From positions 4,836,001 to 4,900,000 of the forward strand of contig NZ_CP036289.1 of NCBI RefSeq assembly GCF_007748115.1: a stretch of 64,000 nt of DNA, written 5' to 3'. The DNA is from Bremerella volcania. GTDB lineage: Bacteria > Planctomycetota > Planctomycetia > Pirellulales > Pirellulaceae. A program made the position numbers and the translations under genes. Positions 4,157 through 42,778 of the stretch are shown one piece after another (the stretch's first letter is position 1; each line of letters starts with the position of its first letter). The notes under the pieces were generated by a model. It made no database searches. It had not been told where the DNA came from and was given only the letters and a program-made list of their open reading frames with translations.

Positions 4157-5998
4157 CTATTCGCCGTCGGCCTTGTACGCGGCGCGATAATCGCCCAGCG
4201 CGGAACCGAAGTCGTGATAGACTCGCCACGTCGCGGCGAGCTTGTTGGGATCGGCGTCGAAGCCGAAAAACTCAACCGTCGGGCTCTGCTTGCCCTGCAG
4301 GAATGCCACGACGATTGCCGCGTCCTGCCGGCCGGCGAACAGATACCATGCCTTATCGCTGGTGCCGGTGAAGCGAGCTGAGTTCGACAGCCGCGGTTCG
4401 ACCTCGAGCGACACGACGTTCTTGAGGGCATTGCCCGTCGGCTCGTCGTTGTTCGCCCGCTGGATAAAGTCGGACTGCAGCAGCTCCTTGGCGGTCTGCT
4501 GCAACTCGGGCGGCACAAGTAACGTGCGAGGTCGGATGTCGAGGTCGCGATCCTCGTCGTCCCGCTGCGCCATCATGCGAGCGATGCCGGTCGCCAGCGC
4601 GATCGCGTCGAGCGTCGATCCGGCACCGGTGTCAAAGTTGCCGTTGCCGGCGCTGAAGAACGAGCCGGCCCCACCGAGCAGCGTCGTGTAGGCCAGATCG
4701 CTGACCGCGCGCATGGCCGCTCGACCGAGCGACATCGCCGTGTCCTCGAACAGACCGAGGTCGTCGTTGATGATGTCGCGCCGGTCAATCGACAGCATCT
4801 TGCCAAAGGTATCGACCGAATACTGGTAGGTCGCCTCGTCGATGCTGCCGTGCTTCAGTTCGCCGCCCGGCGCAACCTGCGTCAGGTCACCGGTATCACT
4901 CGGTCGGATGCCGGTGTGATCCTTGAAGTCGGCAGCCGACTTGATCGCCGCGAACGCACGCCAGGTGGCCGGCGACTCGGTGTAAGCATCGAGAAGCACC
5001 TTGTTCGCCGCATTCCCAAGCGCGACGGGAAGAGAGTAAGTCGACAGCGCCGCGCGGATCAGGGCCTCGCGTCCCGATGGCGCGTCGCGCTGTTCGACCA
5101 TCAGTGCCGCCCGGCATAGATCAACGAGGCTCGTGGCCCGCAGCTCGCGGGCTTGTTGGGCGGTTTGCGGGCCAAGGTGCTTCTCGACCAGATTCTCGTG
5201 GCCCATGTGGACCAGCACGGCCGCTTCGATCACGTCGCGCGTGGGCGCGACCGTCGTCGTTTGGATGTACGGACCGCGCGGGCGCGACGCTCGCAGCACG
5301 GCCAGTTCCGTCTGCTGTCCGGACCAGCCTTCTCGGATGGCCTGCGCCTCGATGTCGCCGTGTTCGCCATTGCAGGCACGACGAATCGCCGTGATCCGTT
5401 CGGTTTCGGCAGCCGCTTCGGCACGGATGTCCTCGGCGGTTTTTTCTGTGGTTGTCATGAGAGCCTCTTCTCCTTCCTGCGAAGCGGCGATCGCGACCGA
5501 CGTTCCGGCATCGGCACCAATCGCCACAATGCTGACTTCCTTGAGCGCGGACGACCGCACCAGCGTGAACCCGCTACCGGTCGCCCTGATCGTCCGCCCG
5601 TTTACTTCAACAATGTCGCCGGCGCGTACTCGCTTCGATTCGCCCGGAGCAACACCGACCGACGCCTGAAACTGAAACCCGCTGCGAGCCAGCTCGATGA
5701 TCTGCTTCGCGGCCTCATTGGTGGGCGCGATCGTGCCGGCGACTAGCAACTTGCCGTTGGCGACCGACGCCTGCCCGAAACCCACAACACCTCGCAGCGT
5801 AGAGTCGTGGTCGGCCAGGATGCTGATCTGAGACGCCGAGACGTCGACGCCGGCCAGGTCGAGAACTAGCGGTCCCCATCCAGGCACGACCATCTCACCG
5901 CCTGTGTAGGCGACGATGGTGACGGCCGGCGTTTTGCCGGCGGCCTGAATATCCACGTCGCTTGTCGCGAGCAGCAGTTCTTCAGTCGCTGTGGACAT
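4157..5998 (-). CDS. Prohead protease-major capsid protein fusion
   Basis: The 613-aa protein has two parts. Residues 1-180 resemble a phage prohead (S78/Mu I-like) protease: VVPGWGP... DLAG, a catalytic-His segment ILADHDS and a catalytic-Ser segment FQASVG. Residues 181-613 resemble an HK97-fold or Mu-type major head protein: an acidic helical arm (EDIRAEAAAETERITAIRR), a capsid body with FKDHTGIRPSDTGDL and YQYSVDTFGKMLSIDRRDIINDD, and a C-terminal VEPRLSN... WYLFAGRQDAAIVVAFLQGKQ segment. Fusing the two provides protease, scaffold arm and capsid in one chain. A good internal start at 5458 (separate entry) would give the capsid part alone. The gene overlaps the upstream 198-aa gene by 17 bases. 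Confidence 0.9.
   Translation of the reverse strand: MSTATEELLLATSDVDIQAAGKTPAVTIVAYTGGEMVVPGWGPLVLDLAGVDVSASQISILADHDSTLRGVVGFGQASVANGKLLVAGTIAPTNEAAKQIIELARSGFQFQASVGVAPGESKRVRAGDIVEVNGRTIRATGSGFTLVRSSALKEVSIVAIGADAGTSVAIAASQEGEEALMTTTEKTAEDIRAEAAAETERITAIRRACNGEHGDIEAQAIREGWSGQQTELAVLRASRPRGPYIQTTTVAPTRDVIEAAVLVHMGHENLVEKHLGPQTAQQARELRATSLVDLCRAALMVEQRDAPSGREALIRAALSTYSLPVALGNAANKVLLDAYTESPATWRAFAAIKSAADFKDHTGIRPSDTGDLTQVAPGGELKHGSIDEATYQYSVDTFGKMLSIDRRDIINDDLGLFEDTAMSLGRAAMRAVSDLAYTTLLGGAGSFFSAGNGNFDTGAGSTLDAIALATGIARMMAQRDDEDRDLDIRPRTLLVPPELQQTAKELLQSDFIQRANNDEPTGNALKNVVSLEVEPRLSNSARFTGTSDKAWYLFAGRQDAAIVVAFLQGKQSPTVEFFGFDADPNKLAATWRVYHDFGSALGDYRAAYKADGE
5456..5477 (-). promoter_or_regulatory. 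Internal ribosome binding site and ATG for the capsid half of the fusion
   Basis: Inside the fusion gene an AAGGAGAAGAGG ribosome binding site lies 5 bases before the in-frame ATG at 5456-5458. Initiation there would give a 433-aa product (MTTTEKTAED...) containing only the scaffold arm and capsid domain, exactly at the domain border. Confidence 0.55.
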
Positions 5999-6578
5999 TG
6001 GTCGCCTCCTGCGGTTCGAGTTTGGTTCCCTGCGGGAAGAACCGGATGTAGGCGTACTCGTTCGGATCGGTGGACGGTTCGATCACGGTGACCAAGCCGA
6101 GCACGTCGAAGCTCGTCGAGAACCCCATCTTGTAACGAGCGGCTGCAACGCGACGCGCCTTCACGCACTGGCCGAACCGCAGGTTGTTGACCCAGCAGTA
6201 GTGCGTCCAGGACGACCATCGGTCCTGGTCGTTCTCATAGATCCACTCGGCGGCCGCGTCGATGTCCTCCTTGCTCCACTCGAGCCAATCGTTGCCCGTC
6301 CAGGTCATGCCTGGCCGCGCTCCCTTCGGCTGGACGATTCCTTTCTCGGCGAGCTGCCAGAGGTAGATGCCGTCGACGTACAACCCTCGGAGACGCAGTT
6401 CGCGGAATGCGCCTTCCGTCGACTTGGGATAGATCAGCGCCGTGCTGGAGTTGCGACTGCGCATCTTCTCGTCGTCGATGTTGGGTAGCAATTCCATCAA
6501 CTGATCGAAGTCCTCGCGGAGCCAATAGTGCTTCTTGTCGGCCCGGGCTTCGCGGTCCTGCTGTTCAGTTTGCCTCAT
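5982..6578 (-). CDS. Conserved hypothetical protein (198 aa) coupled to the sigma factor gene
   Basis: Start set at the ATG at 6576-6578, which overlaps the sigma factor stop by four bases (ATGA); the longer open frame upstream is only a shadow of the sigma gene. The protein is rich in Trp and Tyr (KHYWLREDFDQLMELLP, MTWTGNDWLEWSKEDIDAAAEWIYEND, WSSWTHYCWVNNLRF) with no known domain. It overlaps the capsid fusion start by 17 bases, so it is cotranscribed with head genes and may be a structural or assembly protein. Function unknown. Confidence 0.7.
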   Translation of the reverse strand: MRQTEQQDREARADKKHYWLREDFDQLMELLPNIDDEKMRSRNSSTALIYPKSTEGAFRELRLRGLYVDGIYLWQLAEKGIVQPKGARPGMTWTGNDWLEWSKEDIDAAAEWIYENDQDRWSSWTHYCWVNNLRFGQCVKARRVAAARYKMGFSTSFDVLGLVTVIEPSTDPNEYAYIRFFPQGTKLEPQEATNVHSD

Positions 6579-7418: not shown

Positions 7419-9404
7419 ATGCAAAGACGATTCACGGTTGTTATCACAACCTTACTGTTGACTCTCTCTTCTACTGTTTCTTATGCCCGCACCTGGACCG
7501 AGCGGTCATCCGGACGAACAGTCAATGCAGATCTCGTCTCCTTTGCTGGCGACGTCGTAAAGATCAGACGCCAGAGCGATGGCAGAGTCTTCGCTGTCCC
7601 CGTCGAACGGTTGAGCGACGTTGACCGAACCTTTGTGGAATCTGCTTCTCAAACGCGCCCTGAGGCAACGCCCCGAAAAGGCAACGTTAGGTTTGTGGCG
7701 TTTAATGCGCAGGCCCAGGATGAGTACAGTGCTGAGCAACTCAATGCGTCGAAACGCATCGTCTGTGTCTGGAAAAAAGGCACGGCTCAAGCAGCCATGA
7801 GGACGATTGAAGCGGTCGGTCTGAAGGTCACGTACCTTGGCTCTGCAATCCCGTTCGGCGTTTGCACCGGACAACTCACCGAGGACGGACTCAAGCGGCT
7901 GAGGAGCGACCCGTCGATCCAAAGTGTCGAACCTGACATCGAGTTGGTCGTTGACGACGCGCAGCCCGAAGTGCGGCAGATTACGGACGAAGTCTTGGCA
8001 GCATACGAACACGCTGGCCGTATGGTGTGCGTCTGGAAGAAGGGGAAGAAGAAGGAAAGTCTCGAGATGCTTGCGCAAATGGAGAAAGAAGGAAAGCTGC
8101 GCGTGATTCACAAACTCGAGACCACTCCAATCGCCTTCTGTGACTGGAAGCCGCCACTGCAGCAAGCAACGCTGGTGCAACTGCAAAAATCGCCAATGCT
8201 GGATTACGTTGAACCAGATTTGACGCTGGTGAAGGACAACCCAACCAAAGGTCGAGAGATTGTATTCCCGAACGGGACACCCAAGACGGTCGTGTCTAAA
8301 GGCGTTGTACTGACCACGCCAGATGATCCAGAGATTGCCAAGCTCTGGGGAATGGATTCCATCAAGGCGAAGAAGGCGTGGACCTGTGCCAACCAAACAG
8401 ATGTTGTTGTGGCAGTGATCGATTCGGGCGTCGATTATAATCATCCGGACCTGAAGGCCAACGTGTGGGTCAATACGGGTGAGATCCCTAACAACGGAGT
8501 TGATGACGACAGTAACGGCCACAAGGATGACTACTACGGCCTGAACTTCACTCAACTTCCACCTACAACGGATACGCTCGATAGATACGGACACGGTAGC
8601 CACGTCGCCGGAACTATCGGTGCCGTTGGCAACAACAAGCTCGGAGTCGCAGGCGTCAATTGGCGTGTGCAGGTCATGGGACTCAAAGTTTTTGATGACG
8701 CTGGAACTGCACCAGTTGGAAGCGCTCTAGCTTCTGCCATCGATTATGCTGTCGCGAGGAAAGTTCGCGTCATCAACTTGAGTCTTCGCTGGGGAAGTGA
8801 GCGGGCTTTCTTGAAACGTGTTATTGATGGAGCGGAAGACAAGGGCGTTCTGATTGTATGCTCAGCTGGCAATCTAAATCGTGGTGATGATCCACGCACG
8901 ATTGATAATGACGTCGTGCCCCAGTTCCCCGCGTCCTTTCCGAATGACAACGTCATCGCGGTTGCGAACATCACGGAGAGAGAACAGCTTAATGCGAGTA
9001 GTCATTTTGGATTGCGGAGCGTCGATTTGGGTGCTCCCGGGACAGACATTTACAGCACTGTGCCAACTTCTGTAAAGGCATCGGGTTATGACTCGTACAC
9101 TGGGACATCCATGGCAAGTCCGCATGTCGCAGGTGCGGCGGCGCTGATTTGGGGACATAAGAGGTATAGCAGTGGCGATTTCAAGGCGATTCGAAAGCTA
9201 CTTCTAGACAATGCTCGCTCAATTCCCGCGTTGTCGGGAAAGTGCGTAACTGGCGGCACTCTTGACATTGGCTTCTTGTGTAAGCAGAGCCCGCCACCTA
9301 TCGGAAAGAAACCGCCAATCGTGATTTGCCCCCCACCTCGTTGTTACATCCCGTGTCCCCCGCGCCGCCACGTCTTTTATCGCTTCCGTTGTGGTAGTCG
9401 GTAG
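7419..9404 (+). CDS. Secreted subtilisin-like serine protease (S8) with SHD1 domain
   Basis: The 661-aa protein has a Sec signal peptide (residues 1-23, ending SYA), an SHD1-like domain typical of planctomycete exported proteins (about 24-75, RTWTERSSGRTV... VPVERLSDVDRTFV), two tandem inhibitor_I9-like propeptide repeats (about 112-178 and 200-272, each starting R-I/M-VCVWKKG and ending S-V/Y-EPD) and an S8 catalytic domain. Catalytic residues are Asp335 (AVIDSGVD), His392 (RYGHGSHVAGT), oxyanion Asn485 (CSAGN) and Ser564 (GTSMASPHVAG). The C-terminus is a Pro/Cys-rich tail. It is the only plus-strand gene in this head-gene stretch, has its own terminator and adjoins a truncated portal gene, so it is cargo. 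Expected location is the periplasm or cell surface. Confidence 0.93.
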   Translation: MQRRFTVVITTLLLTLSSTVSYARTWTERSSGRTVNADLVSFAGDVVKIRRQSDGRVFAVPVERLSDVDRTFVESASQTRPEATPRKGNVRFVAFNAQAQDEYSAEQLNASKRIVCVWKKGTAQAAMRTIEAVGLKVTYLGSAIPFGVCTGQLTEDGLKRLRSDPSIQSVEPDIELVVDDAQPEVRQITDEVLAAYEHAGRMVCVWKKGKKKESLEMLAQMEKEGKLRVIHKLETTPIAFCDWKPPLQQATLVQLQKSPMLDYVEPDLTLVKDNPTKGREIVFPNGTPKTVVSKGVVLTTPDDPEIAKLWGMDSIKAKKAWTCANQTDVVVAVIDSGVDYNHPDLKANVWVNTGEIPNNGVDDDSNGHKDDYYGLNFTQLPPTTDTLDRYGHGSHVAGTIGAVGNNKLGVAGVNWRVQVMGLKVFDDAGTAPVGSALASAIDYAVARKVRVINLSLRWGSERAFLKRVIDGAEDKGVLIVCSAGNLNRGDDPRTIDNDVVPQFPASFPNDNVIAVANITEREQLNASSHFGLRSVDLGAPGTDIYSTVPTSVKASGYDSYTGTSMASPHVAGAAALIWGHKRYSSGDFKAIRKLLLDNARSIPALSGKCVTGGTLDIGFLCKQSPPPIGKKPPIVICPPPRCYIPCPPRRHVFYRFRCGSR

Positions 9405-9435: not shown

Positions 9436-10539
9436 TTACGCCCAGCAGGAGCATTCCTGCTGGGCATTTCTTTTTGACTCAATGACGTTGATACAGAAAT
9501 GCCGAATCGAACAGGTTGTTGACGAAAATCCCGCCTCTTGAACGCCCTTCTTGAAAGGCATGTTCAGGCAGCGGGCAATCTCGTTGAGAATCTCGTGCTT
9601 AAACTCGCCATAGGTCGTCGCGGGCTGTTCGGCTTCGAGCTGGCTCATCTTCCAACCGCCAGGCATGGTGAGCAGCGCCCGCTGTTCCAGTTCGATGGGC
9701 TCGAATGGTTCGGCGGCGTCCGCCTCGCCGTTGGCTGGCGCGTCGGTGTAGAGGATGCCGGCGAAGTCGGCAGCCGTTTCAGCGGCCGCAAGCACGGCCA
9801 GCGTGAATCGCCGCAACTGTGCAAACAGCGGCAGCGCCGGCATGATGTCGGGAATGCCGCGTGCCTGGCCGGGTCGGTCGAGGCGGAACAAGTGAATCAT
9901 CGCTTCGGCGGGCAGGCGGTCGTAGTCTCGCGTCAGCCGAACGGCTTCGCCTGGATGCGACTTGAGCACGTGGTATTCGATCGGATTGCCGGCGTCGTCA
10001 AACACGATGCCGTCGATGCCATTGGTGATCAAAGCATTCAAGTCGGGCGTGCAAACCTGGTCGGCTTCAATCAACCGCAGGTCGAGTTGGATCGCCGTCG
10101 GCAGCACGGGATTGCTTGTCAACACGGCGAACGCTTCACCGTCCTGGGCGCGCGACATTCGCATCGTGCGAAGTTTCTCGGGCAGGTTGACGGCTCTGGA
10201 CCACGCGCCAAACTCTCGTTCGATCCGGCGATTGGCGTCGGCGTCATCCGTCAGTACCTGCAGCCGAGGTCCGGTGCCGATCGCGTCGTTGGCCAGCGTC
10301 AACACAATGCCACGGGCGTAGCTGTTGTTGGCTACCTCATAGCGTGCTCGATTACGCAGAATGCGACGTACCTCGGCGCTATTGGCCGCGTTGGCGGACA
10401 GTCCATCCGCGCCGGCCCAATGCCGACGGTTATCGTCGTTGGTGACGGCCGCATCGTAGCGGGCGCGAAGCACTCGCGCGGCCCGCGTCAACGGGCGGCT
10501 AGTCGTCTTGGTGAACAGATTGGCGAGCCAACGGAACAT
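9436..10539 (-). pseudogene. Phage portal protein (lambda type), C-terminally truncated
   Basis: The 367-aa reading matches lambda-family portals up to about residue 330: N-terminal RALTRAARVLRARYDAA-like segment, NNSYARGIVLTLANDAIGTGPRLQV, the FGAWSRAVNLPEKLRTMRMSRAQDGEAF block, EADQVCTPD, EYHVLKSHPG, MIHLFRLDRPGQARGIPDIMPAL and NEIARCLNMPF. Intact family members are roughly 480-530 aa and continue with a conserved region; here the sequence after MPF is unrelated and ends inside the terminator hairpin of the neighbouring protease. The missing C-terminal part is not found elsewhere in the window. A portal without it is unlikely to build a working vertex. The start (ATG 10537-10539) directly abuts the upstream 65-aa gene. 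Confidence 0.85.
9440..9475 (+). terminator. Rho-independent terminator after the S8 protease
   Basis: Perfect 11-bp stem (GCCCAGCAGGA ... TCCTGCTGGGC, 9440-9465) with a GCAT loop, followed by ATTTCTTTTT. The hairpin also lies within the last codons of the truncated portal frame on the other strand. Confidence 0.88.
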
Positions 10540-10737
10540 TTAGGATGCTCCTGGTGGCACGAGTTTGTTGAATGCAAGACCACGACGCTTTGACTTGGCT
10601 GCTTCCTTCGAGGCCAAGTACTTGTCGGCCGCGATTTGATCGGGGAGCTTGTGCTGCTCCACGGACCCAGCGTCGCCGGCAGCCTTGGCAGGCCCTTCGG
10701 CGTTTTCGCGGATCGTGTCTTTGAGGTCGTCGGCCAT
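10540..10737 (-). CDS. Small phage head-operon protein (65 aa)
   Basis: Start at the ATG at 10735-10737. The product is charged and helical with the segment SVEQHKLPDQIAADKYLASKEAAKSKRRGLAFNKLVPPGAS. Proteins of this shape commonly sit directly before the portal gene in prophages, possibly in a gpW-like head-joining position, but I do not recognise a named domain. Its stop is directly followed by the portal start, indicating coupling. Confidence 0.65.
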   Translation of the reverse strand: MADDLKDTIRENAEGPAKAAGDAGSVEQHKLPDQIAADKYLASKEAAKSKRRGLAFNKLVPPGAS

Positions 10738-10770
10738 TGAGGTCTCCAATCGCAAGCGAGAACAACGCCT

Positions 10771-10792
10771 GCCTATTTGAAGACCTACCCGG
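10771..10792 (-). promoter_or_regulatory. Copy 1 of a recurring leader motif
   Basis: On the minus strand it reads CCGGGTAGGTCTTCAAATAG, upstream of the 65-aa gene/portal unit. Related copies lie at 27623-27643 and 43593-43614. Possibly a shared promoter or RNA leader element. Confidence 0.4.
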
Positions 10793-10896
10793 TCACTCTC
10801 GTGAATGACGAAAGACAAGGAGAAGAAGGCAGAATCGTGCTACATGTAGCGAGGTCGGAGCCTCAGGGCCATGAACGTAGCGGTCGACGAAGGAAC

Positions 10897-11727
10897 TTAG
10901 CGCAAGTCGGGTGTGCGCCTGGAGAGGACTGCAAGGACCTCGTCATGGCCCCATCTGGAACCGACCTCCTTGCGTCGATGTTGAGCCCACCCGCTTGCCG
11001 ACATGTGATGCTTGGCATCAAGGATGGTGGCGTCCGCGCCACGGTTCAATAGAAACGACACCATGTTCGGCTTCGCTTCCCATGCCGCCCAGTGCAATGC
11101 GGTCGCTTTCCCATCCGTCACGTTCACATCCAGACCGCTATCGAGCAAGTATTCCACGAGGGGTACACGATCGCAGACTGCGGCACACCTCAGCACATCA
11201 AAGACTTGCTCATCGGAAAAGGATGCCGACTCAAGGTCCGCCCGCACTCGATCGAGTTGTCCAGCTCCGGCCGCGATTCGTGTCGATAGGATTTTCGCAC
11301 CCTCTCTTACGAGCAGGTCGACAACTTCGACCATGCCGAAATGAACGGCGAAATCCAGCGGCGTGCCATCGGGGATGCCGGGATACGAGGCAACGGCTTC
11401 CATGTTCGCGCCGGCGTCGATCAAAACTTCCGCGACGCCCGCTTCTCCCAAACTCGCTGCGCCGTGAAGAGGCGTTTCGCCTGCGCCGGGAAGTCCGTCC
11501 ACCGGCGCGCCCGCGTCGATCAGAATCTGTGCCAACTCCGCCTGCCGGCCATGATCCCAGAGTTGATTGAAGGGGCCATCGCTCAAGAAGTGAAGCGGCT
11601 CAGTCTGGCAGCTGTTCAGAATGCTGCCCCAGCGGATCGGCGTGGAAGCTAGTTTTGGGTTTTCATTCAGAAGCTGTCGGGCGCGTTCGACATCGCCAGC
11701 GACAATCGCCTTCTTAAGTTGACTCAT
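10897..11727 (-). CDS. Ankyrin-repeat protein
   Basis: The 276-aa protein consists of ankyrin repeats: an LLNENP-type capping helix pair, then ILIDAGAPVDGLPGAGETPLHGAAS, VLIDAGANMEAV... GTPLDFAVHFGMVEVVDLLVREGA and YLLDSGLDVNVTDGKATALHWAAWEAKPNMVSFLLNRGADATI. There is no signal peptide, so it is probably cytoplasmic and binds another protein. It starts one base after the MerR stop, so the two are likely cotranscribed, which is unusual for a mercury regulator. The GC-rich codon use does not differ clearly from its neighbours. The partner is unknown. Confidence 0.88.
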   Translation of the reverse strand: MSQLKKAIVAGDVERARQLLNENPKLASTPIRWGSILNSCQTEPLHFLSDGPFNQLWDHGRQAELAQILIDAGAPVDGLPGAGETPLHGAASLGEAGVAEVLIDAGANMEAVASYPGIPDGTPLDFAVHFGMVEVVDLLVREGAKILSTRIAAGAGQLDRVRADLESASFSDEQVFDVLRCAAVCDRVPLVEYLLDSGLDVNVTDGKATALHWAAWEAKPNMVSFLLNRGADATILDAKHHMSASGWAQHRRKEVGSRWGHDEVLAVLSRRTPDLR

Positions 11728-11728
11728 T

Positions 11729-12133
11729 TCATTGGGCCTTCAATCCTGCCACAACCTGGCAGCAGTCTGATTTCTTTTGAGTCTGGCATTCCTCGAGCGC
11801 GTTCTTCAACACTTTGCGGACGTGCCGAAGATCCTTCAGCCGCTGCTCGATGTCCGCCAGTCGCTCCTCAATCAGGCTCTGCACGTTGCCGCACGTCGGA
11901 ATGCCGCCTTCGTCGTCGGAGAGCAACGCCTTCACGTCCTCGAGCGTAAACCCGATCGCTTGTGCCGCGCGGATGAACTTCAGCTTGTTGAGCGACTCAC
12001 CGCTGTACAACCGGTAGTTTCCCTGGCTGCGATTCTCGGGTTCAACGAGACCGATTCGCTCATAGTAGCGAACAGTCGTTGTCGGAATGTCAGCCGCTTT
12101 GGCCAACTGGCTGATGGTGTATTCGTCGGGCAT
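11729..12133 (-). CDS. MerR-family metal-responsive regulator
   Basis: The 134-aa reading from the ATG at 12131-12133 has the MerR winged-helix (YTISQLAKAADIPTTTVRYYERIGLVEPENRSQGNYRLY), the dimerisation helix (ERLADIEQRLKDLRHVRKVLKNAL) and cysteines placed as in mercury sensors: one in GGIPTCGN, one in LEECQ and a pair in SDCCQ. MerR proteins bind Hg(II) with three cysteines across a dimer and untwist a promoter with an over-long spacer. Such a promoter lies in the divergent gap (12188-12219). A TTG four codons upstream is an alternative start. Specificity for mercury rather than Zn, Pb or Cd is inferred from the adjacent MerT/MerP genes. Confidence 0.88.
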   Translation of the reverse strand: MPDEYTISQLAKAADIPTTTVRYYERIGLVEPENRSQGNYRLYSGESLNKLKFIRAAQAIGFTLEDVKALLSDDEGGIPTCGNVQSLIEERLADIEQRLKDLRHVRKVLKNALEECQTQKKSDCCQVVAGLKAQ

Positions 12134-12187
12134 GGCAATGCTCAAATCGCCCTTGGAGAACTGATTTTCAGTTTTTTGGCAAATCCG

Positions 12188-12219
12188 CTTGACCTTGCAC
12201 TTAGGTGCAACCTCGATAA
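12188..12219 (+). promoter_or_regulatory. MerR-type operator-promoter for merTP
   Basis: -35 TTGACC (12188-12193) and -10 GATAAT (12214-12219) are separated by 20 bases, the over-long spacer typical of MerR-controlled promoters. The spacer contains a perfect dyad TTGCAC-N4-GTGCAA (12194-12209) positioned as the operator. It drives the metal-transport genes and overlaps the upstream region of merR. Confidence 0.82.
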
Positions 12220-12261
12220 TAGACGCAGATGACCGGATTCACAACATAGGGCTGAGAAGCC

Positions 12262-13452
12262 ATGAACCAGAACGCGGCAACCGCAACCAGACAGACGTGC
12301 CCGACTTGTGGCCAAAAAGCACGACGTGTTTCGCTTCACACGATTCGCAGCCTGTTGAAGGAACCCGCTGCATCAGGATTCCAAAACGGCGAATCGTGTT
12401 GCCAGACCGATGGAACGGGATGTCACGCAATCACCGAAGACACCGGCTGGCGTTTCTGTGACTCGCCGGCATGCGACGTTGTGTACTTCGCAGAGCAGAG
12501 TGACGATACGTTTGTCAAATCACAATTGAAAGTTGACGTGGGCGTCAAGGAGACAGCTGGCGACCGCCCTCTCTGTTATTGTTTTGACCACTCGGTGACC
12601 AGCATCAAGCGTGAGCTGGAGGCAACGGGAGAATCGACGGCGGTCGAGGATATCCGCTCCCGGATGAAAGGAGAGGGGTGCCATTGTGAAGTGACCAACC
12701 CCAGCGGATCCTGTTGCCTCGGAAGCGTGGCCAAGGGAATCGAAATCGCGAAGGGTGAACTGGTTACGACGGAGTCGCACATTGATTCCAAACCTCCTTC
12801 GGGCCGGGGAGAGAAGATCGCCAAGGTCGGGACCATCGTCTCTGCGATCATGGCATCGAGTTGCTGCTGGCTCCCGTTGGTCCTATTGGCCGTAGGCGTA
12901 TCCGGTGCCGGCATCGCGGCCGCGCTCGAAACCTATCGGCCCCTGTTCATGCTCATCACATTCGGGTTTCTGGGAGCCGCCTTCTACTTCACTTACCGGC
13001 CTCGGCCAGCAAGCGATGCGAACCAGGACGCGTCGTGCTGCGACTCGACGATGGTAGGCGAATCAGACTGCTGTGCGCCCGAAACGACGTCGCGCTGGAG
13101 TATGGCCGCGATGAACAAAGTCATGCTGTGGGTCGTCACTGGGCTGGCGATCGCGTTCCTGGCCTTCCCAAGCTATGTCGGTCTGCTCTTCGGTGCAGGA
13201 CACAACGTGGTCGTAACCGATGATATGAACCGCGCGGTTCTCACAATTGAGGGCATGACTTGTGAAGGATGCGCGACGACAGTTGCTGAAGCGATCAAAC
13301 GTGTGGACGGTGTGATCGCGGTGGAAGTGAACTACGAAACGAAGCAAGCGACCATCGGGGCGGAAGACTGCTGTCCCGTGCCGATTAAGGAAATCCAGTC
13401 TGCTCTCGCCAAGGCCGGTTACGCCGGCGAGCCAATCGACCCAACGGACTAA
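12262..13452 (+). CDS. Mercuric transport MerT-MerP fusion with a CopZ-like cysteine-rich N-terminus
   Basis: The 396-aa protein has three parts. Residues 5 to about 160 form a cysteine-rich domain like the N-terminal domain of some CopZ-type chaperones (TCPTCG, CCQTDG, FCDSPACDVVYF, LCYCFDHS, GCHCEVTNPSGSCCLG). Residues about 185-250 are MerT-like: two membrane helices with the Cys pair SSCCWLPLVLLAVGVSGAG and MLITFGFLGAAFYFTYRP. A CC-rich loop and a third helix (VMLWVVTGLAIAFLAF) follow. The C-terminus (about 322-392) is an HMA/MerP domain with GMTCEGC. In the family, MerP captures Hg(II) and hands it to MerT for import to a reductase. No merA is in the window, so imported Hg would need a distant reductase or is bound. 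Under MerR control. Confidence 0.88.
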   Translation: MNQNAATATRQTCPTCGQKARRVSLHTIRSLLKEPAASGFQNGESCCQTDGTGCHAITEDTGWRFCDSPACDVVYFAEQSDDTFVKSQLKVDVGVKETAGDRPLCYCFDHSVTSIKRELEATGESTAVEDIRSRMKGEGCHCEVTNPSGSCCLGSVAKGIEIAKGELVTTESHIDSKPPSGRGEKIAKVGTIVSAIMASSCCWLPLVLLAVGVSGAGIAAALETYRPLFMLITFGFLGAAFYFTYRPRPASDANQDASCCDSTMVGESDCCAPETTSRWSMAAMNKVMLWVVTGLAIAFLAFPSYVGLLFGAGHNVVVTDDMNRAVLTIEGMTCEGCATTVAEAIKRVDGVIAVEVNYETKQATIGAEDCCPVPIKEIQSALAKAGYAGEPIDPTD

Positions 13453-13479
13453 CCAATTCATCCGAAAGTGATTCACAAC

Positions 13480-14742
13480 ATGAGCCGTTTTGCTTGCATA
13501 GCCCTGCTTTGCCTGCCCGTCGCAATCGTTGGATGCGGCCGCACGAGTACGGAGAATCCAAACGGTACGTCGTCAACCGCGTCGTCCGAATCGACTGTCC
13601 ACATTCACATCAGCGGCTTCAAGAAGAGCAAAAGCGGCGCGACGTGAATGTTGTGACCGAACACGGTCAAAGAGGCCCTGGAAGGGTCTGACGCAGTCAC
13701 AATGGTTGAGATGCATCTCGATCGAGACGTATTCGATGTCACGTTTGATTCATCGAAGGCGCAAGCGTCCGATCTCGTCGCCATCATCGCCGAGGCCGGC
13801 TACTCGGCGAGAATTATCACGGGCGATACGTCCGAACCTACCGTTGCCGATGTCGACTATCCCGCGCTTTTGCCTTCCGTATTCGACCGGGCGAGATCCG
13901 CCGGCAAACCGGTCGTGTTGTACTTTGGGGCGTCATGGTGCGTTCCTTGCCGCCGCATGTCCCAAGAAACGTTTGCAGATCCGACGGTAAAAAGCCTGCT
14001 CGACCGCTGCATCTTTGAGAAGATCGACGCCGACGAGCGAGCCGACTTGTCAAAACAGGCGGGTGCGAGGGCTCTCCCCGACGTGCGATTCGTTTCCGCC
14101 GACGGGAAGGAAATGAAGAGGATCACCAGCTTTCTCGGCCCGAACCTGTTCGCGGACGAGCTGCGCCAATTGCTAGGTGATGAGCCTGTCGACAACACAG
14201 TCGAAGAAGGCAAGAGCGTCGAGTTGCATGATCTCTCGCCCGAAGCAGACCAGCTGCGCGAGGCCTTCGTGAAGGCCAGCGGTAAAGTGAGAGTCGTAAT
14301 GCTTGTCTCGCCTGGCTGACCGATGTGCGTCGAAGGGGCCCGTGCGGTCCATAGGCAGGCTACCAGCCAGATTGAAAGTCCCGACTTGGTGATTTTCGTT
14401 GTGTGGTTGCCGCGATATCCGGGGGACAACCGCGAGAAGGCCGTCACCGCCACCAGGAACGTATCTGACTCGCGGGCTCACCACTTCTGGGACGCCGAAG
14501 CCATGCTGTCAAAGCGTTACGGACGGATCTTGGGTCTGCCGGAAGGTAAACAATTCGCGTGGGACACATACATGGTGTTCGACGCGGATGCGACTTGGAT
14601 CGACACACCGCCGACGCCCGCCAACTGGATGCATCAAATGGGCGGGGCACTTGGCCGCAGCCATCCGCGTTGGCTTGATCCTGATAGATTCAAGGGCTCG
14701 CTAATTGAATTGCTAAAAGAGCCAGACCGCAATCAACCTTGA
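13480..14742 (+). CDS. Probable three-selenocysteine lipoprotein: MerP-like HMA domain (UxxU), thioredoxin domain, thioredoxin-like domain (UxxC)
   Basis: From the ATG at 13480 one frame runs 420 codons to the stop at 14740-14742, interrupted only by three TGA codons (13645-13647, 13654-13656, 14317-14319; codons 56, 59, 280). Residues 1-19 are a lipoprotein signal (VGC at 17-19). The HMA domain follows: VHIHISGF..., then T-U-M-L-U-P-N-T-V-K-E-A-L, matching the MerP motif T-C-x-x-C-P-x-T-V-K-x-A-L, and ends AEAGYSARI. A thioredoxin domain carries WCVPC (Cys154, Cys157). A third domain has S-P-G-U-P-M-C, where a CxxC is expected, then FVVWLP and HFWDAEAM. All three TGAs fall at metal- or redox-active Cys positions, and SECIS-like hairpins follow. 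The alternative, a decayed pseudogene in three pieces, would need three independent hits at those codons. Likely role: envelope mercury or metal capture and thiol/selenol redox; cotranscribed with merTP. Confidence 0.85.
13664..13694 (+). ncRNA. Candidate bacterial SECIS element for the UGA pair
   Basis: RNA stem: GUC (13666-13668)/GAC (13690-13692), bulge AA, AGA/UCU, bulge GG, CCCU (13676-13679)/AGGG (13683-13686), apical loop GGA. The loop begins with G and starts 23 nt after the second UGA and 32 nt after the first, inside the spacing range of known bacterial SECIS elements, so one hairpin could serve both codons. Confidence 0.7.
14336..14350 (+). ncRNA. Candidate bacterial SECIS element for the third UGA
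   Basis: Five-bp stem GGGCC (14336-14340)/GGUCC (14346-14350) with apical loop CGUGC that has G at its second position, starting 21 nt after the UGA at 14317-14319. The stem is shorter than in the first hairpin, so support is weaker. Confidence 0.5.
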
Positions 14743-14747
14743 TTCAT

Positions 14748-14939
14748 TCAGACGCGATTTGGAGGAGCCTGGACCGGCGACTCGTAAGTCACGATCTTGC
14801 GGCTGCAATGCCGGCACTCTTTGCGGCGGCGAATACGGCCGTCACGCAGCGGTTCCGTATGCGTGGTGTAGAAATGCCGGCAGCCGCACCGTGGGCATTC
14901 GATGCCGCGATTGGGTTGTTGTGAGCCGGCCTGATTCAT
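14748..14939 (-). CDS. NrdR-like zinc-ribbon small protein
   Basis: The 63-aa protein starts at the ATG at 14937-14939, overlapping the terminase stop (ATGA). It has a four-cysteine zinc ribbon ECPRCGCRHF... RRRKECRHCSRKIVTYE, which resembles the N-terminal ribbon of NrdR (including the R-R-R-x-C segment) without its ATP-cone. Such short ribbons occur in phage packaging operons (Ogr-like or nuclease accessory roles). It is coupled to TerL; the mercury cassette follows immediately downstream. Confidence 0.75.
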   Translation of the reverse strand: MNQAGSQQPNRGIECPRCGCRHFYTTHTEPLRDGRIRRRKECRHCSRKIVTYESPVQAPPNRV

Positions 14940-17206
14940 TCGCGACGCCTCCGCTGCAGTTCGGCGAAGCTGACACGCTCGCGTTTGGCGGGACCAAATG
15001 CGCTCCCTGTTCCAGCGAGCACCGCCCCCTGAATTGAGGCGGCCACAGCGCAGCCGACTAGACAATCAAACCAGTGGTTGTCGCCGCGTTCTGGTCGCAT
15101 CTTCCATTCGTCAACCGTGCGGCCGCGGCCTTCGGTCTTCACTCGATACTCGGCCGACAAGTGCTCGGCAAAGAGACGATGCTGGTCGGCGCTTTCGCCA
15201 AACAACGACAGGCAGCCACGGTCACCCATCGGCACCGCCAGCCGAGCGTGCACGAATGTTTTCCAGAAGTTGGTGTCGTAGACGACGTGGCGCACAGCAC
15301 GCTTGCCGGCCACATTGGGCATCCGCCAGTTGTGTCCGACCCGGTCGCCCGGCCGGCGCTTGTACTCGGAGAAAGGCTGACTCGATGCGCCAACAAACCG
15401 GCCGTGACTGGGAATGATGACGCCGGCGTGTGCGGATTGCCGGCAGAATTGATAGACCACGTCAGTCGATGCACCCCAGTTGGCGTCCACCAGGCAGCGT
15501 TCGATTCGCAGCATGGCACCATCATCGCGCCGCCATTCGCGACCGAGATGCGACGTCGTCAACTGTTCGAGTCCCGCATAGATGGACCCTTCCAAACCAC
15601 TCGCCTTCGTCGCCAGCGGCAGCGTGAGCCGGGCATCTCGCAGCGTAAAGTAAGGCCGCTGTTGGTCAGGAAACTCGCCATAGTCGACGACATAGCCGGT
15701 GAAATCGTCTTCCCACGCTGCGACGACGTAGAACAGTAAGTTCCCTTGAACGTCCACAAACATCGTCAGATGGTTGCAGCCAATTGGCAGCACGCCTCGC
15801 TGCATGCGATTGGTCTTGGCGGCGATTTGGTCAGGCGACAGTTCGTCTGCTTCGGACGTTTCCTCGGGTAGTGGCTCGTTCTGGTACTCTGCGAAGAACG
15901 CCGCCTCGTCTTGCAACTTGAGGTTCATCGCGTGCTGGATCGCCGACTCTTCATCGTGGTTGAATCGTTCTTGCCAAGCCACGTCAGCGCCGGCATCCAT
16001 TGCTTCCCGATTGGCCGCGTAGAACTCGGTCGCCAGTCGGATGTCGCCGTGGGCGCGGAGGCTCTCGCCGCGAAGTTCGGCGTAACGCTGCCACAGCTTC
16101 TCATCGGTGGGAAACGAATACACCATCTTCGTGCGCTCGCCGTTCCATTCCGGATGCTTGTCGCGGCATAAAATGTTGTCAGCCATGTCGCTGGGGCGGA
16201 TTACCGTACAGGGCATGATGCCGCTGATCTTCTTGCCGGGACCAGCCAGACCCAGGATAGCGCCTGCGAGTATTCCCTCGCGCGTCGCGCATTGCGACAA
16301 CGACCGAGCCGACTCGTCGGTCTGCGGATCGTCGAGCACGACCAGTGAGGGGCGAACGGTATGTCCGTCCGAACGCTTGTATTTCATGCCGCGAATGCGG
16401 CCAGTAATGCCAGCGACCTTGATGATCGCCCCGCTCGCGGCGCTGCCGGGCATCGAAGGAAGCACGACCTCGCGGGCCGTCCAACCGATGTGCGTTCGCT
16501 CGCCCTTGAAGAGTTGACCGTTGCAGCGATTGGCGATTCCATCGAGGCACTGAATCGGATAGACGACCTCGGGGAAGTCTTCGAGCAACAGGTCGTTGCC
16601 GTCGAGTTCCATCTTGATCGAGTCAAGCATATCCATCGCATGCCCTTCGTCGCTGCCGATGAGACACACGAACTCGCGGTGGCCGTTGAGCACGGCCCAG
16701 ATGCACGCGCATTCGCAAATCGTCGTCTTGCCCGAACCGCGAGGCATCGCCATCGCGAATAGTCCGCCGCGCAGCACGGCCTGCTCGATCTTGCCGATCA
16801 CTTTCAAGTGGTCGGGCGACCACGGGAGGTGGAACGTCAGCGGAAAGTAGGTCTCGCAGAAGAATCGAAAATCGGATGCTGCCCGCGCTTTGCGGTCCCC
16901 GCTGACGACCTCGGGCAGTTCACCAATGTCGCGGCCGGCAATGGCAAGCGCGACATTGCGAGCGCGAGCGCGATCCTTCAGCTTTTCATACGGATCGCCG
17001 TCGGGCTCTGGGCGCGGCGTGTGCCGAATCTCCACGAGCCACGCGACGTACCGCAGCAAGTCTACGAAACGTGCATCGCCGATTCGCATGCCGGCCCGCG
17101 TTCGATGGCGATGGAGCTGCCGTTCATTGATGACCTCGCCCAACGGCGTCGAGTTCAACAAGCGGCACAATTCGCTCGGTCGTAGTTTCCGCGGGTCAGT
17201 TGCCAC
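14936..17206 (-). CDS. Phage terminase large subunit (GpA-like)
   Basis: The 756-aa protein starts at a GTG (17204-17206) overlapping the 68-aa gene by 11 bases. Residues 1-62 form a helical DNA-recognition-like domain (LCRLLNSTPLGEVINERQLHRHR). The ATPase has Walker A AMPRGSGKTT (about 153-162) and Walker B SLVVLDDPQT. The C-terminal half carries an RNase H-like nuclease layout: TMFVDVQGNLLFYVVAAW, CLVDANWG and WFDCLVGCAVA. It translocates DNA into preformed heads and cuts concatemers. The ATPase and nuclease landmarks are intact, unlike the nearby portal. The N-terminal domain resembles the preceding small protein (both end with an R/HY-x-AWLV-K/E segment), which suggests a related DNA-binding fold. 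Confidence 0.93.
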   Translation of the reverse strand: MATDPRKLRPSELCRLLNSTPLGEVINERQLHRHRTRAGMRIGDARFVDLLRYVAWLVEIRHTPRPEPDGDPYEKLKDRARARNVALAIAGRDIGELPEVVSGDRKARAASDFRFFCETYFPLTFHLPWSPDHLKVIGKIEQAVLRGGLFAMAMPRGSGKTTICECACIWAVLNGHREFVCLIGSDEGHAMDMLDSIKMELDGNDLLLEDFPEVVYPIQCLDGIANRCNGQLFKGERTHIGWTAREVVLPSMPGSAASGAIIKVAGITGRIRGMKYKRSDGHTVRPSLVVLDDPQTDESARSLSQCATREGILAGAILGLAGPGKKISGIMPCTVIRPSDMADNILCRDKHPEWNGERTKMVYSFPTDEKLWQRYAELRGESLRAHGDIRLATEFYAANREAMDAGADVAWQERFNHDEESAIQHAMNLKLQDEAAFFAEYQNEPLPEETSEADELSPDQIAAKTNRMQRGVLPIGCNHLTMFVDVQGNLLFYVVAAWEDDFTGYVVDYGEFPDQQRPYFTLRDARLTLPLATKASGLEGSIYAGLEQLTTSHLGREWRRDDGAMLRIERCLVDANWGASTDVVYQFCRQSAHAGVIIPSHGRFVGASSQPFSEYKRRPGDRVGHNWRMPNVAGKRAVRHVVYDTNFWKTFVHARLAVPMGDRGCLSLFGESADQHRLFAEHLSAEYRVKTEGRGRTVDEWKMRPERGDNHWFDCLVGCAVAASIQGAVLAGTGSAFGPAKRERVSFAELQRRRRE

Positions 17207-32329: not shown

Positions 32330-33487
32330 CTACAGTTCCCCTCGGAATGCACGGTCAAGAATTGACGGGAGCAGTGCATCTAACTGTGCTGACTGATCGT
32401 GCAGCGATTGTAGCTCGCTCATCTTTCGGCGAACGTTGCGAAGTTTGACCTGAGCTTCGTTGGACGGCAGCGGGAGTTCATAGTTCAAGAAGTCCTTAGG
32501 GTTCAGTCGCTTGCGGCGAACATTGGTGCCGGTGCTGGCTCCACTGAGAAGCGGCCATACAGAGGGCGACCGGAAATACACATCCAGCACTTCAGGAAAC
32601 ACACGATCCTCGTTAATTGTGAATACGGGAAACTCGGGTGAGACAAAAAGCCCGTCGCAAGTGTTTGGGACAACGGCCAACGCGCCCTCCCAGGCCATCA
32701 ACTTCGGGTAGACAAATTCTCCTTCGCGAATTTGTGTCAATCGCTTGTAGGCGAAGTCGTTTCCTGCCTTCACTTGACCGCGAAATACTCCGCGGCCGAA
32801 GCAGTAGACACCGGCGAAGTGATATGTCTTCGTGGGAACAACGTCCACGTCAGGCTTGCGCCAGGTCACCAATTCGTGCATGGGTGTCAGCGTTGGCGGT
32901 CCGAACTGTTCATCTCTCAGAATAGCCCGACAAAGTTGATCGCATTCTTTATTTGCGCTTGTCCGCAGCGACTTGGCTTCACCAATCTTGTCTGCGATGC
33001 GGTCGATTTGCGCCACGATCGTCTCTTGTTGCGCAGGAGTAGGAAGTGGCACCTCAATGGTGAGAAATTTCTCGGGACGAATGCGATTTTTCCCACTGCT
33101 CCCTTGGGAAAGTGCGTCACACTTTTGCCAAAGTTCGCGAGCCTTGGAATACCAATGAAGCCAGCGCGGCAAAACGCAATCACGACGACATTCAAATGTT
33201 GGAAACTCATTTGAACCGACGCATCCGGCGACCTCAGCGGGGACGACTGCGACGGACCCGTGACGAACCCAAATCTTGTTGATGATCAAATCATCCTCTC
33301 GAACTTCATTCAGCGTCTTGACTGCGGTTTCACTGCCGTCGATCGTCTGACGCTCGTATGCGCCTTCGCCCCACCACTTCACCCCGAGAGTTCTGTAAGT
33401 CTCACCTGGAACAACGGATACGCTACGTTGCACAGGCGTTACGATTTCGGATAGCGCGACTAGTGGCCAACCGTTTGAAGTTGTCAT
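32330..33487 (-). CDS. hsdS: Type I restriction-modification specificity subunit HsdS
   Basis: The 385-aa protein has two target-recognition domains (WPLVALSEIVTPV..., FLTIEVPLPTPAQQETIVAQI... and MHELVTWRKPDVDV..., FLNYELPLPSNEAQVKL), each followed by a conserved helix (IDRIADKIGEAKSLRTSA and RKMSELQSLHDQ), ending LLPSILDRAFRGEL. It determines the bipartite recognition sequence. It overlaps hsdM by four bases. Confidence 0.93.
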   Translation of the reverse strand: MTTSNGWPLVALSEIVTPVQRSVSVVPGETYRTLGVKWWGEGAYERQTIDGSETAVKTLNEVREDDLIINKIWVRHGSVAVVPAEVAGCVGSNEFPTFECRRDCVLPRWLHWYSKARELWQKCDALSQGSSGKNRIRPEKFLTIEVPLPTPAQQETIVAQIDRIADKIGEAKSLRTSANKECDQLCRAILRDEQFGPPTLTPMHELVTWRKPDVDVVPTKTYHFAGVYCFGRGVFRGQVKAGNDFAYKRLTQIREGEFVYPKLMAWEGALAVVPNTCDGLFVSPEFPVFTINEDRVFPEVLDVYFRSPSVWPLLSGASTGTNVRRKRLNPKDFLNYELPLPSNEAQVKLRNVRRKMSELQSLHDQSAQLDALLPSILDRAFRGEL

Positions 33488-35100: not shown

Positions 35101-35104
35101 GTGT

Positions 35105-35859
35105 TCAGTTCGCCTTACTATTCCAATGGTCCCATAGTCCGTCGTCGGCTCTTCCAGTCGCCCCCTTGGGTCGGCGACCTTCCCAAATCATTACAGCGAG
35201 CTTCTCGACAGCCCCTGCATGCTTTGGGTCCCAGCCCAAGCGAATCAGTTGCTGGCGAATCAACTCTGGCGTCACGCCCTCCTGCTTGTGGTAGAGCGTT
35301 TCCAAGGTTCGGATCGCACTCGCGCGATCGCTCGGATGCCAATGCCTGTATTGAGATTCACTCCATGAGTAAGCGAGTCGAGAGCGATGAATGCTGCACC
35401 TGTGGTCGGCTCCGATTGCTGCGTCTCAGGAGCAGCGTCCTGACCAAGCTCTGTTGCATGCCAAGTTTGAACCCACTGGTCACAGTCGCCGTCGCTCCAG
35501 GGAACATACAAAACAGAGGCGTTCCCCGAGATGCCGTCGACCACATCCAACAATTCTTGGCCACCATATATCGCAAGAATCGGACCGTCGAAGTTGTAAG
35601 TCTTGTTTCCCCTCAAGGTCATCAGTTGCAGCGTTATGCCCTGAACGGTTGCCGTGCCACTTTTTCGCAATTGATTGAACAGTCCTGCGATCTCAGTCCA
35701 ATTGGCGATGTTCTCAAGGTTGCCTTTCGTCGACACGGCGACAATGCCGACGTTGCCAGCCTGTTTTGCCTCAGCCAGTAGCCACTGGACGCCGCGAATT
35801 ACCGCTTGGTCTTTTGGACCCGTTGAAGAAATGAAGTGAGAGTTGCCCTTGCGAGTCAT
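35105..35859 (-). pseudogene. Accessory protein of the type I RM locus, split by a frameshift
   Basis: The first frame (from the ATG at 35857-35859) gives MTRKGNSHFISSTGPKDQAVI... to ALDSLTHGVNLNTGIG and then an out-of-character tail stopping at 35272. Inserting one C in GGC|ATCCG near 35340 moves into another frame: HPSDRASAIRTLETLYHKQEG, then IRQQLIRLGWDPKHAGAVEKLAVMIWEGRRPKGA, ending at 35105 next to hsdM. The fused product would be about 250 aa. This could be a real loss of one base or a sequencing error. It lies between hsdR and hsdM; its role in restriction is unknown. Confidence 0.75.
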
Positions 35860-35872
35860 GAGATTTCCTCAA

Positions 35873-40769: not shown

Positions 40770-41192
40770 TCATGTCGCAATACCTTTTAGCGAAGCGAGT
40801 TGCGCCCACAGGCGTCGCTGCTTTCGCCAGTCCGGCACCAGCGCAATTGACTGCAATTGGCGGAGGTGAATCGGGTCGCGGCCGCTCTCCACACGGGGCA
40901 GGAAGAGGAGCGCCTCCTGGATGTCAGGGGCCAGCATCCGCAGGTTCATGATCTGCGTGATTCGGGCGCGAGTGACGTGGGCGAGACGAGCTAGTTCGGC
41001 GTAGTCGGTGACTTCGCCGGCGCGGATCAGATCGTCGAAACGGATCGCCAGCGCCATGAAACGGGCCACACGCGGAACACGACCGGAATGGAGAGGCGGC
41101 GTGGGAGCGTCGCCTTCGCGGACTTCCTTGCGGCTACCACGCCCGCGTCGCTCGAAATGGATCTGTGATTCGATCGTGATGGGCCTGGTCAT
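40770..41192 (-). CDS. HTH protein coupled to the serine recombinase
   Basis: The 140-aa protein starts at the ATG at 41190-41192, overlapping the recombinase stop (ATGA). A basic N-terminal part precedes a helix-turn-helix-like segment YAELARLAHVTRARITQIMNLRMLAPDIQEALLFLP. Proteins of this kind accompany serine recombinases with DUF2924 proteins and may act as directionality or target factors. The C-terminus (LVPDWRKQRRLWAQL) is short and basic. Confidence 0.8.
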   Translation of the reverse strand: MTRPITIESQIHFERRGRGSRKEVREGDAPTPPLHSGRVPRVARFMALAIRFDDLIRAGEVTDYAELARLAHVTRARITQIMNLRMLAPDIQEALLFLPRVESGRDPIHLRQLQSIALVPDWRKQRRLWAQLASLKGIAT

Positions 41193-42778
41193 GCGGCGTC
41201 CTCCGTATCGCGCCCAGCGAGTTCGTCGGCCAGGGTCTTGATTCCGCTCGGATGAAACGTAATCGTGACCTTGCCCGTGGTGCCGTCGTAGTCGACCCGT
41301 TCGACGAGTAGTTGAACGATGCGAGTCTGTTCGCGCGGCGTGAGCGACTCCCAAACCGGATCGAACACGGCCATCGCCTTAGCGACCTCGCGCTCGTCGA
41401 CGATGTCGCGGCTTAGTGCGATGACCTGCTCCCGAACCTCGGTCGCCCGTCGTTCCGCGCCGCGAATCCGTTCCTGCAGGTCGGCAAGCCGAGCGGTCGC
41501 CGGTGTGTTGCCTTCACCGGGAACGATCTGTTCGAGTAGCTTGCGGATCTCGTCGCTCCAGCGCGACAGTTCGCGTTCCAGGCCACGGCGTTCGGCTTCG
41601 AGCGCCGCGACCTGTGACTGGCCCTGATTCCGGGCGTTGGCAACGGTCTCGTGAAGGAGAGCTGGATCGAGGCCAATGCATTTGATCTGCTCGACGACGA
41701 ACCGCTCGATTTCACCCGCCGGGATAGATTTGGAGGGGCATGAATGCCAGCCACGTTTTTGAGCGGAAGTGCAAACATAGTAGCGATAGCGTTTCGTTCC
41801 GTTCTTGGTCGAGTGGCTCGGCGACATCGCGCAGCCGCAGGGGACGCATCGCAGAATGCCTTTGAGCAACGCTCCGAACTTGTTTCGCACGGCGGCTCCG
41901 CCAGAACGACCGTTGCGTCCGAGAACCAACTGCACGCGTTGCCAGAGATCGCCGCTGACGATCGCGGCATGCTCGCCTTCGTGGACTTCGTCCTTGTACT
42001 TGAGCTTGCCGGTGTAGGTGATATTGGTGAGCAGTTTATGCAGGCTCGTCTTGGTGAAGGTCTTGCCGCCGCGTTCGTGTCCCTTGCGTGTCATCCATAG
42101 CTTGTTGACCCAGCCCCGCTTTTCGAGTTCCTGAACCGTTGCGATCAGCGATTGGTGTTCGAGGTACAGTTCGTATATCGTCCGCACGCGAGACGCTTCC
42201 TCCTCGTTTACGATGAGCTTCGAGCCGCGAGGGTCGACGTCGTAGCCGAGCAGCGGCATGCCGCCCGACCACTTTCCTTTGCGGCGAGCGGCGGCGATCT
42301 TGTCCCGTGTCCGTTCGGAAATGATCTCCCGTTCGAACTGGGCGAAAGACAATAACACGTTGAGCATCAATCGTCCCATCGATGTGGACGTGTTGATGAG
42401 TTGCGTTACGCTGACGAACGATACCTGGTGCTTGTCGAACGTCTCGACCATCTTTGCGAAGTCGAGGAGGGAACGGCTGAGGCGGTCGACCTTGTAAACC
42501 ACGACGCAGTCGATCTTGCCCGCCTCGATATCCGCCAGCAGGCGTTTCAGCGCCGGACGTTCCATATTGCCGCCGGAGAACCCGCCGTCGTCGTATTGGT
42601 CAGGAAGGCACTCCCAACCTTCGCTCGCCTGCGACTTGATGTAGTTCTCGCCCGACTCGCGTTGGGCATCGAGCGAGTTAAATTCCTGCTCCAACCCCTC
42701 TTCCGTTGATTTGCGCGTGTAGATGGCGCAGCGGAGAGCTGCAGTCGGCGGGGATGTTTTGCGAGTTCGATTTGTCAT
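41189..42778 (-). CDS. Large serine recombinase, complete
   Basis: The 529-aa protein has the resolvase domain with CAIYTRKSTEEGLEQEFNSL (nucleophile Ser24), VYKVDRLSRSLLDF and FAQFEREIISERTRDKIAAAR, a recombinase domain (GYDVDPRGSKLIVNEEEASRVRTIY), a zinc ribbon (ILRCVPCGCAMSPSHS... YYVCTSAQKRGWHSC) and a coiled coil (ALEAERRGLERELSRWSDEI). It is the standard size of this DUF2924-linked class. Overlaps both neighbours by four bases, so it forms a strict operon with the DUF2924 and HTH genes. Confidence 0.95.
   Translation of the reverse strand: MTNRTRKTSPPTAALRCAIYTRKSTEEGLEQEFNSLDAQRESGENYIKSQASEGWECLPDQYDDGGFSGGNMERPALKRLLADIEAGKIDCVVVYKVDRLSRSLLDFAKMVETFDKHQVSFVSVTQLINTSTSMGRLMLNVLLSFAQFEREIISERTRDKIAAARRKGKWSGGMPLLGYDVDPRGSKLIVNEEEASRVRTIYELYLEHQSLIATVQELEKRGWVNKLWMTRKGHERGGKTFTKTSLHKLLTNITYTGKLKYKDEVHEGEHAAIVSGDLWQRVQLVLGRNGRSGGAAVRNKFGALLKGILRCVPCGCAMSPSHSTKNGTKRYRYYVCTSAQKRGWHSCPSKSIPAGEIERFVVEQIKCIGLDPALLHETVANARNQGQSQVAALEAERRGLERELSRWSDEIRKLLEQIVPGEGNTPATARLADLQERIRGAERRATEVREQVIALSRDIVDEREVAKAMAVFDPVWESLTPREQTRIVQLLVERVDYDGTTGKVTITFHPSGIKTLADELAGRDTEDAA

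Follow-up and report, generated by a model that had tools for sequence, protein, structure and literature searches.

The window, i.e., the whole 64-kb stretch of Bremerella volcania DNA analysed here, contains a prophage with head, portal and terminase genes as well as primase, helicase, Sak4, sigma-factor and serine-recombinase genes (Table 1). A cassette sits between the terminase gene and the pair formed by a gpW-like gene and the portal gene. It contains an ankyrin-repeat gene, a divergent merR and merTP, which encodes a MerT-HMA fusion; 27 nt beyond merTP follows the last gene of the operon, which encodes a UxxU-type HMA domain, a thioredoxin domain and a third redox domain (domain 3). 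The frame of this gene is intact apart from its UGA codons. The internal TGAs are flanked by runs of 55, 2, 220 and 140 sense codons, and TAA and TAG are absent from the frame. For the coordinates of this frame, the three internal TGA codons, the sense runs and the absence of TAA and TAG, the first-pass annotation of this DNA was exact; it was silent on the terminal stop, codon 421, which is also TGA.

A frame that is broken by TGA only is, taken alone, not striking at the base composition of the window. In the six frames, 55 runs of at least 420 codons without TAA or TAG were counted; TGA was absent from 4 of them, occurred once in 1, twice in 5 and three times in 3. Since frames this long with TGA as their only stop codon are not unusual in the window, the case for the gene rests on homology.

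Two other groups of genes were noted in the same region. Between the genes for portal and head protease, a subtilase gene (7419-9404) is found on the opposite strand; it may represent another insertion of cargo. Within or next to the prophage are type I restriction-modification genes resembling HsdM and EcoEI-R (33484-38248).

Table 1. Genes and other features of the prophage region, with positions in the window
Feature	Position	Strand	Remarks
Phage head/protease protein	4157..5998	-	
Phage portal protein	9436..10539	-	
Small gene at gpW place	10540..10818	-	Named by position only, no PHROG/Pfam match; kept beside portal in related phages
Inserted cassette (ankyrin, merR, merTP, UxxU gene)	10851..14781	.	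Bounds by comparison with L163; by comparison with L157, 10750-14775
Ankyrin-repeat protein, part of cassette	10897..11727	-	
MerR-family regulator, divergent	11729..12145	-	109.7 bits, TIGR02051 cut-off 150.85
MerR-type promoter	12189..12220	+	TTGACC, 20-nt spacer with dyad TTGCAC-TTAG-GTGCAA, GATAAT; same layout in G110
MerT-HMA fusion (merTP)	12262..13452	+	N-terminal CopZ_Nterm_CC-like domain; in-frame TGA absent
UxxU-HMA/thioredoxin/third redox domain gene	13480..14742	+	TGA at codons 56, 59, 280; terminal TGA
UxxU pair at HMA metal site (TGA-ATG-TTG-TGA)	13645..13656	+	
Hairpin, candidate bSECIS	13672..13691	+	Positions 28-47 from first base of first UGA; covaries among 15 distinct sequences
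DsbD-type thioredoxin domain with WCVPC	13882..14169	+	PF13098/PF13899 above cut-offs; Foldseek best match DsbD C-terminal domain
Third TGA (SPG-U-PMC), in domain 3	14317..14319	+	
Phage terminase large subunit (gpA)	14936..17206	-	
Large serine recombinase, presumably prophage integrase	41189..42778	-	

Product domains, relatives and hairpin

Read with C for U, the product has an HMA domain at residues 51-108 (PF00403, 29.0 bits; cut-off 24.8) and the thioredoxin domain at residues 135-227. AlphaFold modelled residues ~40-235 well and the rest poorly, with pLDDT under 50 from residue 301. With Foldseek, the gamma domain of DsbD ranked first and MerP (1osd) was found at rank 24, with a TM-score of 0.91 over the target. 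Because the model is poor there, the fold of domain 3 rests on a marginal Redoxin match (26.8; cut-off 26.6); an NCBIfam match to this domain was absent.

Direct reading of the whole protein revealed a lipobox, and its signal is lipoprotein-like. This bears on the idea of reinitiation past the UGAs, by which separate pieces would be made, the thioredoxin part starting at ATG 13702 and domain 3 at ATG 14323. Both open reading frames exist (205 and 139 aa), and ATG 14323 is situated one codon past the third UGA; however, the separate pieces would be without a signal peptide, and by eye a clear Shine-Dalgarno sequence at the usual distance is absent before either ATG. Reinitiation therefore appears unlikely.

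A scan of genome contigs yielded 18 relatives from this family, in which a MerP-like HMA domain is joined to a thioredoxin of the DsbD type; their record titles name Planctomycetota, Proteobacteria and one unassigned bacterium. TGA-x-x-TGA was present in all 15 which cover the metal motif, among them members from genomes with SelB and tRNA-Sec, and the first two TGAs of the window gene do stand at HMA Cys/Sec positions, as had been claimed for them. Three relatives are without the motif: the contig of L121 starts past it, and in L125 and L133 the motif-bearing half-domain is missing. The latter two have Cys-type HMA domains upstream; at ~5300-6200, Cys-type MerT-HMA frames run into or adjoin the thioredoxin part which lacks the UxxU half-domain. 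Matches to the thioredoxin domain only were dropped, including G019, which has a TGA outside the Sec columns, and G021, which has a TAG. In G085 (L051, upstream of 1447), the UxxU-thioredoxin gene is immediately preceded by a second HMA frame, with MT-U-AAC, which is likely a UxxC MerP-type selenoprotein of the same operon. The UxxU gene of G028 (L055/L127, a Blastopirellula NORP48 contig) groups with copies from Proteobacteria-titled contigs, and this contig is probably mis-binned.

For domain 3, 11 relatives were obtained, i.e., G110, G118 and nine from 392 sampled genomes of the phylum (own genome excluded). All 10 which cover the third site (L152/G459 does not) have TGA or Cys there: TGA in six, namely G110 (SPGU), G159, G166, G173, G190, G255 (SPTU), and Cys in four (G118, G238, G490, G515). 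The earlier assignment of the third TGA to a redox Cys position is thereby borne out. As judged from these alignments, homology across all three TGAs lifts the frame at 13480-14742 above chance, and the gene is to be regarded as a selenoprotein gene by descent.

Over the 60 nt that begin with the first UGA, 16 sequences (15 distinct) could be aligned without gaps. The hairpin lies about where a bSECIS would be expected. In columns 28-46, 80.8% of the cells were paired, compared with 71.0 ± 1.8 in shuffles (as high in 0 of 500), and 12 cells were changed on both sides, compared with 4.4; with slid partners 26.7-68.3% of the cells were paired, with a bulged register 88.3%. The core shows C-G, U-A and G-C swaps and was recovered by RNAalifold unaided. 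Three of five measures beat the shuffles, a type of control which is inflated by the relatedness of the sequences. No gain over shuffles was obtained for pairs changed on both sides (4 vs. 2.9; 95 of 500 as high) or for further pair types (8 vs. 7.9; 356 of 500 as high), and of the 15 sequences, 10 do not keep the outer pair 28-46 and 7 do not keep 29-45. An Rfam scan of the gene gave three matches, none of them at the gathering score.

Could the three TGAs be nonsense mutations that arose by chance in an ordinary Cys gene? One base change turns a Cys codon into TGA. The window copy also breaks 4 of the 32 columns which are invariant in the other members (0-2 in any other member; L120 left out of the reference set), and its end branch of 1.2 is the longest in a clade of five rows, the other four having 0.016-0.81. 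Broken columns and long branch together are a weak hint of relaxed constraint. Against this origin stand the TGAs at both HMA positions throughout the family and the covarying hairpin after the UGA pair, and it seems hardly credible.

Selenocysteine machinery of the host and its relatives

The genome of B. volcania consists of one contig of 6.50 Mb (99.49% complete), to which the following searches apply; a plasmid might exist besides it. A match to the winged-helix domain of SelB (PF09107) was absent. In controls, this model scored above its cut-off in E. coli alone among 14, and it was found in 73 of 147 relatives, the own genome being counted among the latter. The top match to TIGR00475 turned out to be EF-Tu. 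SelB was also absent from the eight other genomes of the genus which were searched, one of them 68% complete.

All 13 matches to the tRNA-Sec model (150 of 978 candidates scored) were below the cut-off and represented ordinary tRNAs. The anticodon TCA was absent from all 72 RF00005 matches (150 of 181 candidates scored), which had ordinary anticodons according to ARAGORN. Five relatives with a TGA or Cys copy possess SelB (G022, G056, G085, G110, G118), and searches of the same scope detected tRNA-Sec with anticodon TCA in all of them except G022. A pattern for tRNAs with a UCA loop, which catches four of four planctomycete tRNA-Sec, gave 12 matches in the own genome and 13 in the reversed control, with an ARAGORN tRNA, Leu(CAA), at one of the 12. 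Besides scattered tRNA genes, the host chromosome contains two clustered tRNA arrays, L079:2250-6103 with 22 genes and L080:1593-2244 with 7.

For SelD and SelA, nothing above the NCBIfam cut-offs was found in the own genome; the SelD candidate was ThiL. A full-length SelA relative at L009:1258-2649 (G000:C1:2350740-2351798) passed the Pfam cut-off (110.9 vs. 22.8) and remained below that of NCBIfam (148.7 vs. 267.9). A Phe is aligned to the lysine of its SGDK motif, the residue which presumably holds PLP, and the protein is possibly repurposed. According to excerpts of one study, SelA homologues are known in Sec-less organisms (PMC1794560). The search for sel genes which the first-pass annotation had proposed thus did not yield the set of SelA, SelB, SelD and tRNA-Sec in the host, a result that the annotation itself had named as one that would refute its three-Sec protein. 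Over the 147 relatives including the own genome, TGA copies were present in 4 of 73 genomes with SelB and in 2 of 74 without, the latter being the own genome and G028; TGA copies and SelB are weakly associated.

A working three-Sec protein, as originally claimed for this host, would be in keeping with the intact frame, hairpin, Sec positions and operon promoter. Its synthesis in B. volcania is very unlikely nevertheless, considering that SelB, tRNA-Sec, any tRNA with a UCA anticodon, SelD and a SelA with the SGDK lysine were not found in a one-contig genome, nor SelB in eight congeners. Alternatively, this strain might read UGA with a tRNA that escaped recognition, or read through it efficiently. 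Model-based searches can miss odd tRNAs, and the fractions of candidates scored were those given above; but the scan for UCA loops, with no more matches than its reversed control, yielded no new tRNA, readthrough of three UGAs would leave a scarce product, and the gene itself ends in TGA. Such decoding is highly improbable.

Prophage slot and mer operon

Among the viral contigs with a related terminase (best 80 of 262), terminase and gpW-like gene were both present in 74. The gap between them exceeded 1 kb in 7 of these 74 and contained other genes, some of them toxin-antitoxin-like by eye. Of 17 chosen terminase loci from 15 genomes of the host family, three had a gap above 1 kb. The slot is short in L157, whose terminase is 98% identical, and in G001 from the same genus. 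The cassette thus shows the pattern looked for in cargo, i.e., extra genes in a slot which is left short in most related phages. In this phage group, varied genes recur as cargo in the space between terminase and gpW (window 10819-14935), as seen also in L159, L161, L162, L165, L170, L177, L234, L268, L281 and L283.

No match to the UxxU gene, MerTP or MerR occurred in the 80 viral contigs (best 80 of 262) or in the 17 chosen host-family loci. Nothing was found when viral contigs were searched by protein alignment for the UxxU-thioredoxin family, or with MerTP and with domain 3; a DNA pattern which matches 16 of 16 known UxxU members gave two matches there, both unrelated on reading. Plasmid and phage records contained thioredoxin-domain matches only, mostly DsbD (19 and 3 records). 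Clear terminal repeats of the cassette were not found. Terminase relatives are present in 74 of 241 genomes of the family, own genome included; 35 other terminase-bearing genomes were covered by the SelB search, 16 with SelB and 19 without.

The link to mercury, proposed earlier from the HMA motif, is supported by three features of the same operon: a gene of the MerR family, the fusion of MerT with HMA, and the promoter of the MerR type. A related operon exists in G110, a member of the same order with SelB and tRNA-Sec (MerR 66%, MerTP 58%). A promoter and terminator scan of the region gave no more than shuffles did; this generic sigma-70 scan, with a spacer limit of 18, does not list the MerR-type promoter of the operon. 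From its elements, the operon promoter looks intact.

Interpretation and comparison with known systems

Conserved TGAs, a hairpin, missing machinery and a prophage slot are the observations to be explained. They are, in our opinion, quite probably due to a stranded selenoprotein gene, i.e., one which resides in a host without the means to decode it and which probably came as phage cargo, its donor being a planctomycete able to decode Sec. Its family appears to consist of mercury-linked selenoproteins. Where SelB and tRNA-Sec are present, both HMA UGAs are probably read as selenocysteine; the selenols would bind Hg(II) at the envelope, and the thioredoxin domains could keep the site reduced. 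In B. volcania, translation would be expected to stop at the first UGA, because selenocysteine machinery was not found, and 55 residues would be made; MerR and the all-Cys MerTP should then be the sole products of the operon able to work. The intact frame and promoter speak against stranding, inasmuch as they look as if the gene had been useful recently. The gene most likely arrived with the phage cargo, although delivery by a phage from a Sec-decoding host is inferred, since no other phage with the cassette was found; the cassette could also have entered a resident prophage.

We lean slightly towards a more general notion, namely that phages move Sec-dependent cargo between hosts that decode Sec and hosts that do not, the machinery of each host switching its value on or off, and that this lysogen is an "off" case. 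An intact selenoprotein gene with several UGAs can sit in a genome where Sec machinery is not found, and caution is advisable: an in-frame UGA alone does not license inferring the use of Sec. The locus also makes it possible to test, in one case, how far the recipient's genetic code limits the transfer of genes.

A literature search over titles and the beginnings of abstracts, with few subscription papers, did not turn up any description of a selenoprotein gene carried by a prophage in a host without Sec. When some passages of text were included, the search, again with few subscription papers, likewise gave no description of a UxxU-HMA/thioredoxin fusion. Selenoproteins of Planctomycetes and their horizontal transfer have been described, as excerpts indicate (PMC4807772).

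Several known systems can be compared. The UxxU metal-binding (seleno)protein of NCBIfam NF041115 likewise carries UxxU in the metal site of its HMA domain; the window protein adds a lipoprotein-like signal, a thioredoxin and a third Sec domain, and scores 33.8 with that model (cut-off 95). Proteins of this kind appear in excerpted lists as "metal-binding protein (putative mercuric reductase), UxxU" (PMC13188914) and "putative mercuric reductase, UxxU" (PMC9312934). The UxxU site which the first-pass annotation had recognized is real; Sec in an HMA site of this type had already been described. NF045683, a MerT/CopZ fusion-like selenoprotein, is likewise a mercury-transport/heavy-metal HMA selenoprotein (window protein 30.4; cut-off 375), and a MerP selenoprotein was listed, in the part of the text available, in the GOS survey (PMC2398784). 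MerP (TIGR02052; 1osd) has the HMA fold in common, but is free-standing (window protein 35.3; cut-off 92.55). It contains Cys in place of Sec. To our knowledge, a thioredoxin fusion is not known for NF045683 or the GOS MerP selenoproteins. The C-terminal domain of DsbD, with WCxxC, is among the best sequence matches and is the best fold match of the middle domain; the window thioredoxin, however, is not part of a DsbD membrane protein. The merR-merTP-Sec operon of G110 is related in its regulator, MerTP, promoter and the TGA form of domain 3, and differs in that domain 3 is fused to MerTP and the host possesses SelB and tRNA-Sec. UxxU-HMA joined to thioredoxin, as found on contigs titled Planctomycetota and Proteobacteria, may be an undescribed architecture; UxxU metal-binding selenoproteins as such are known, and what seems to be new is their fusion to thioredoxin and the stranding.
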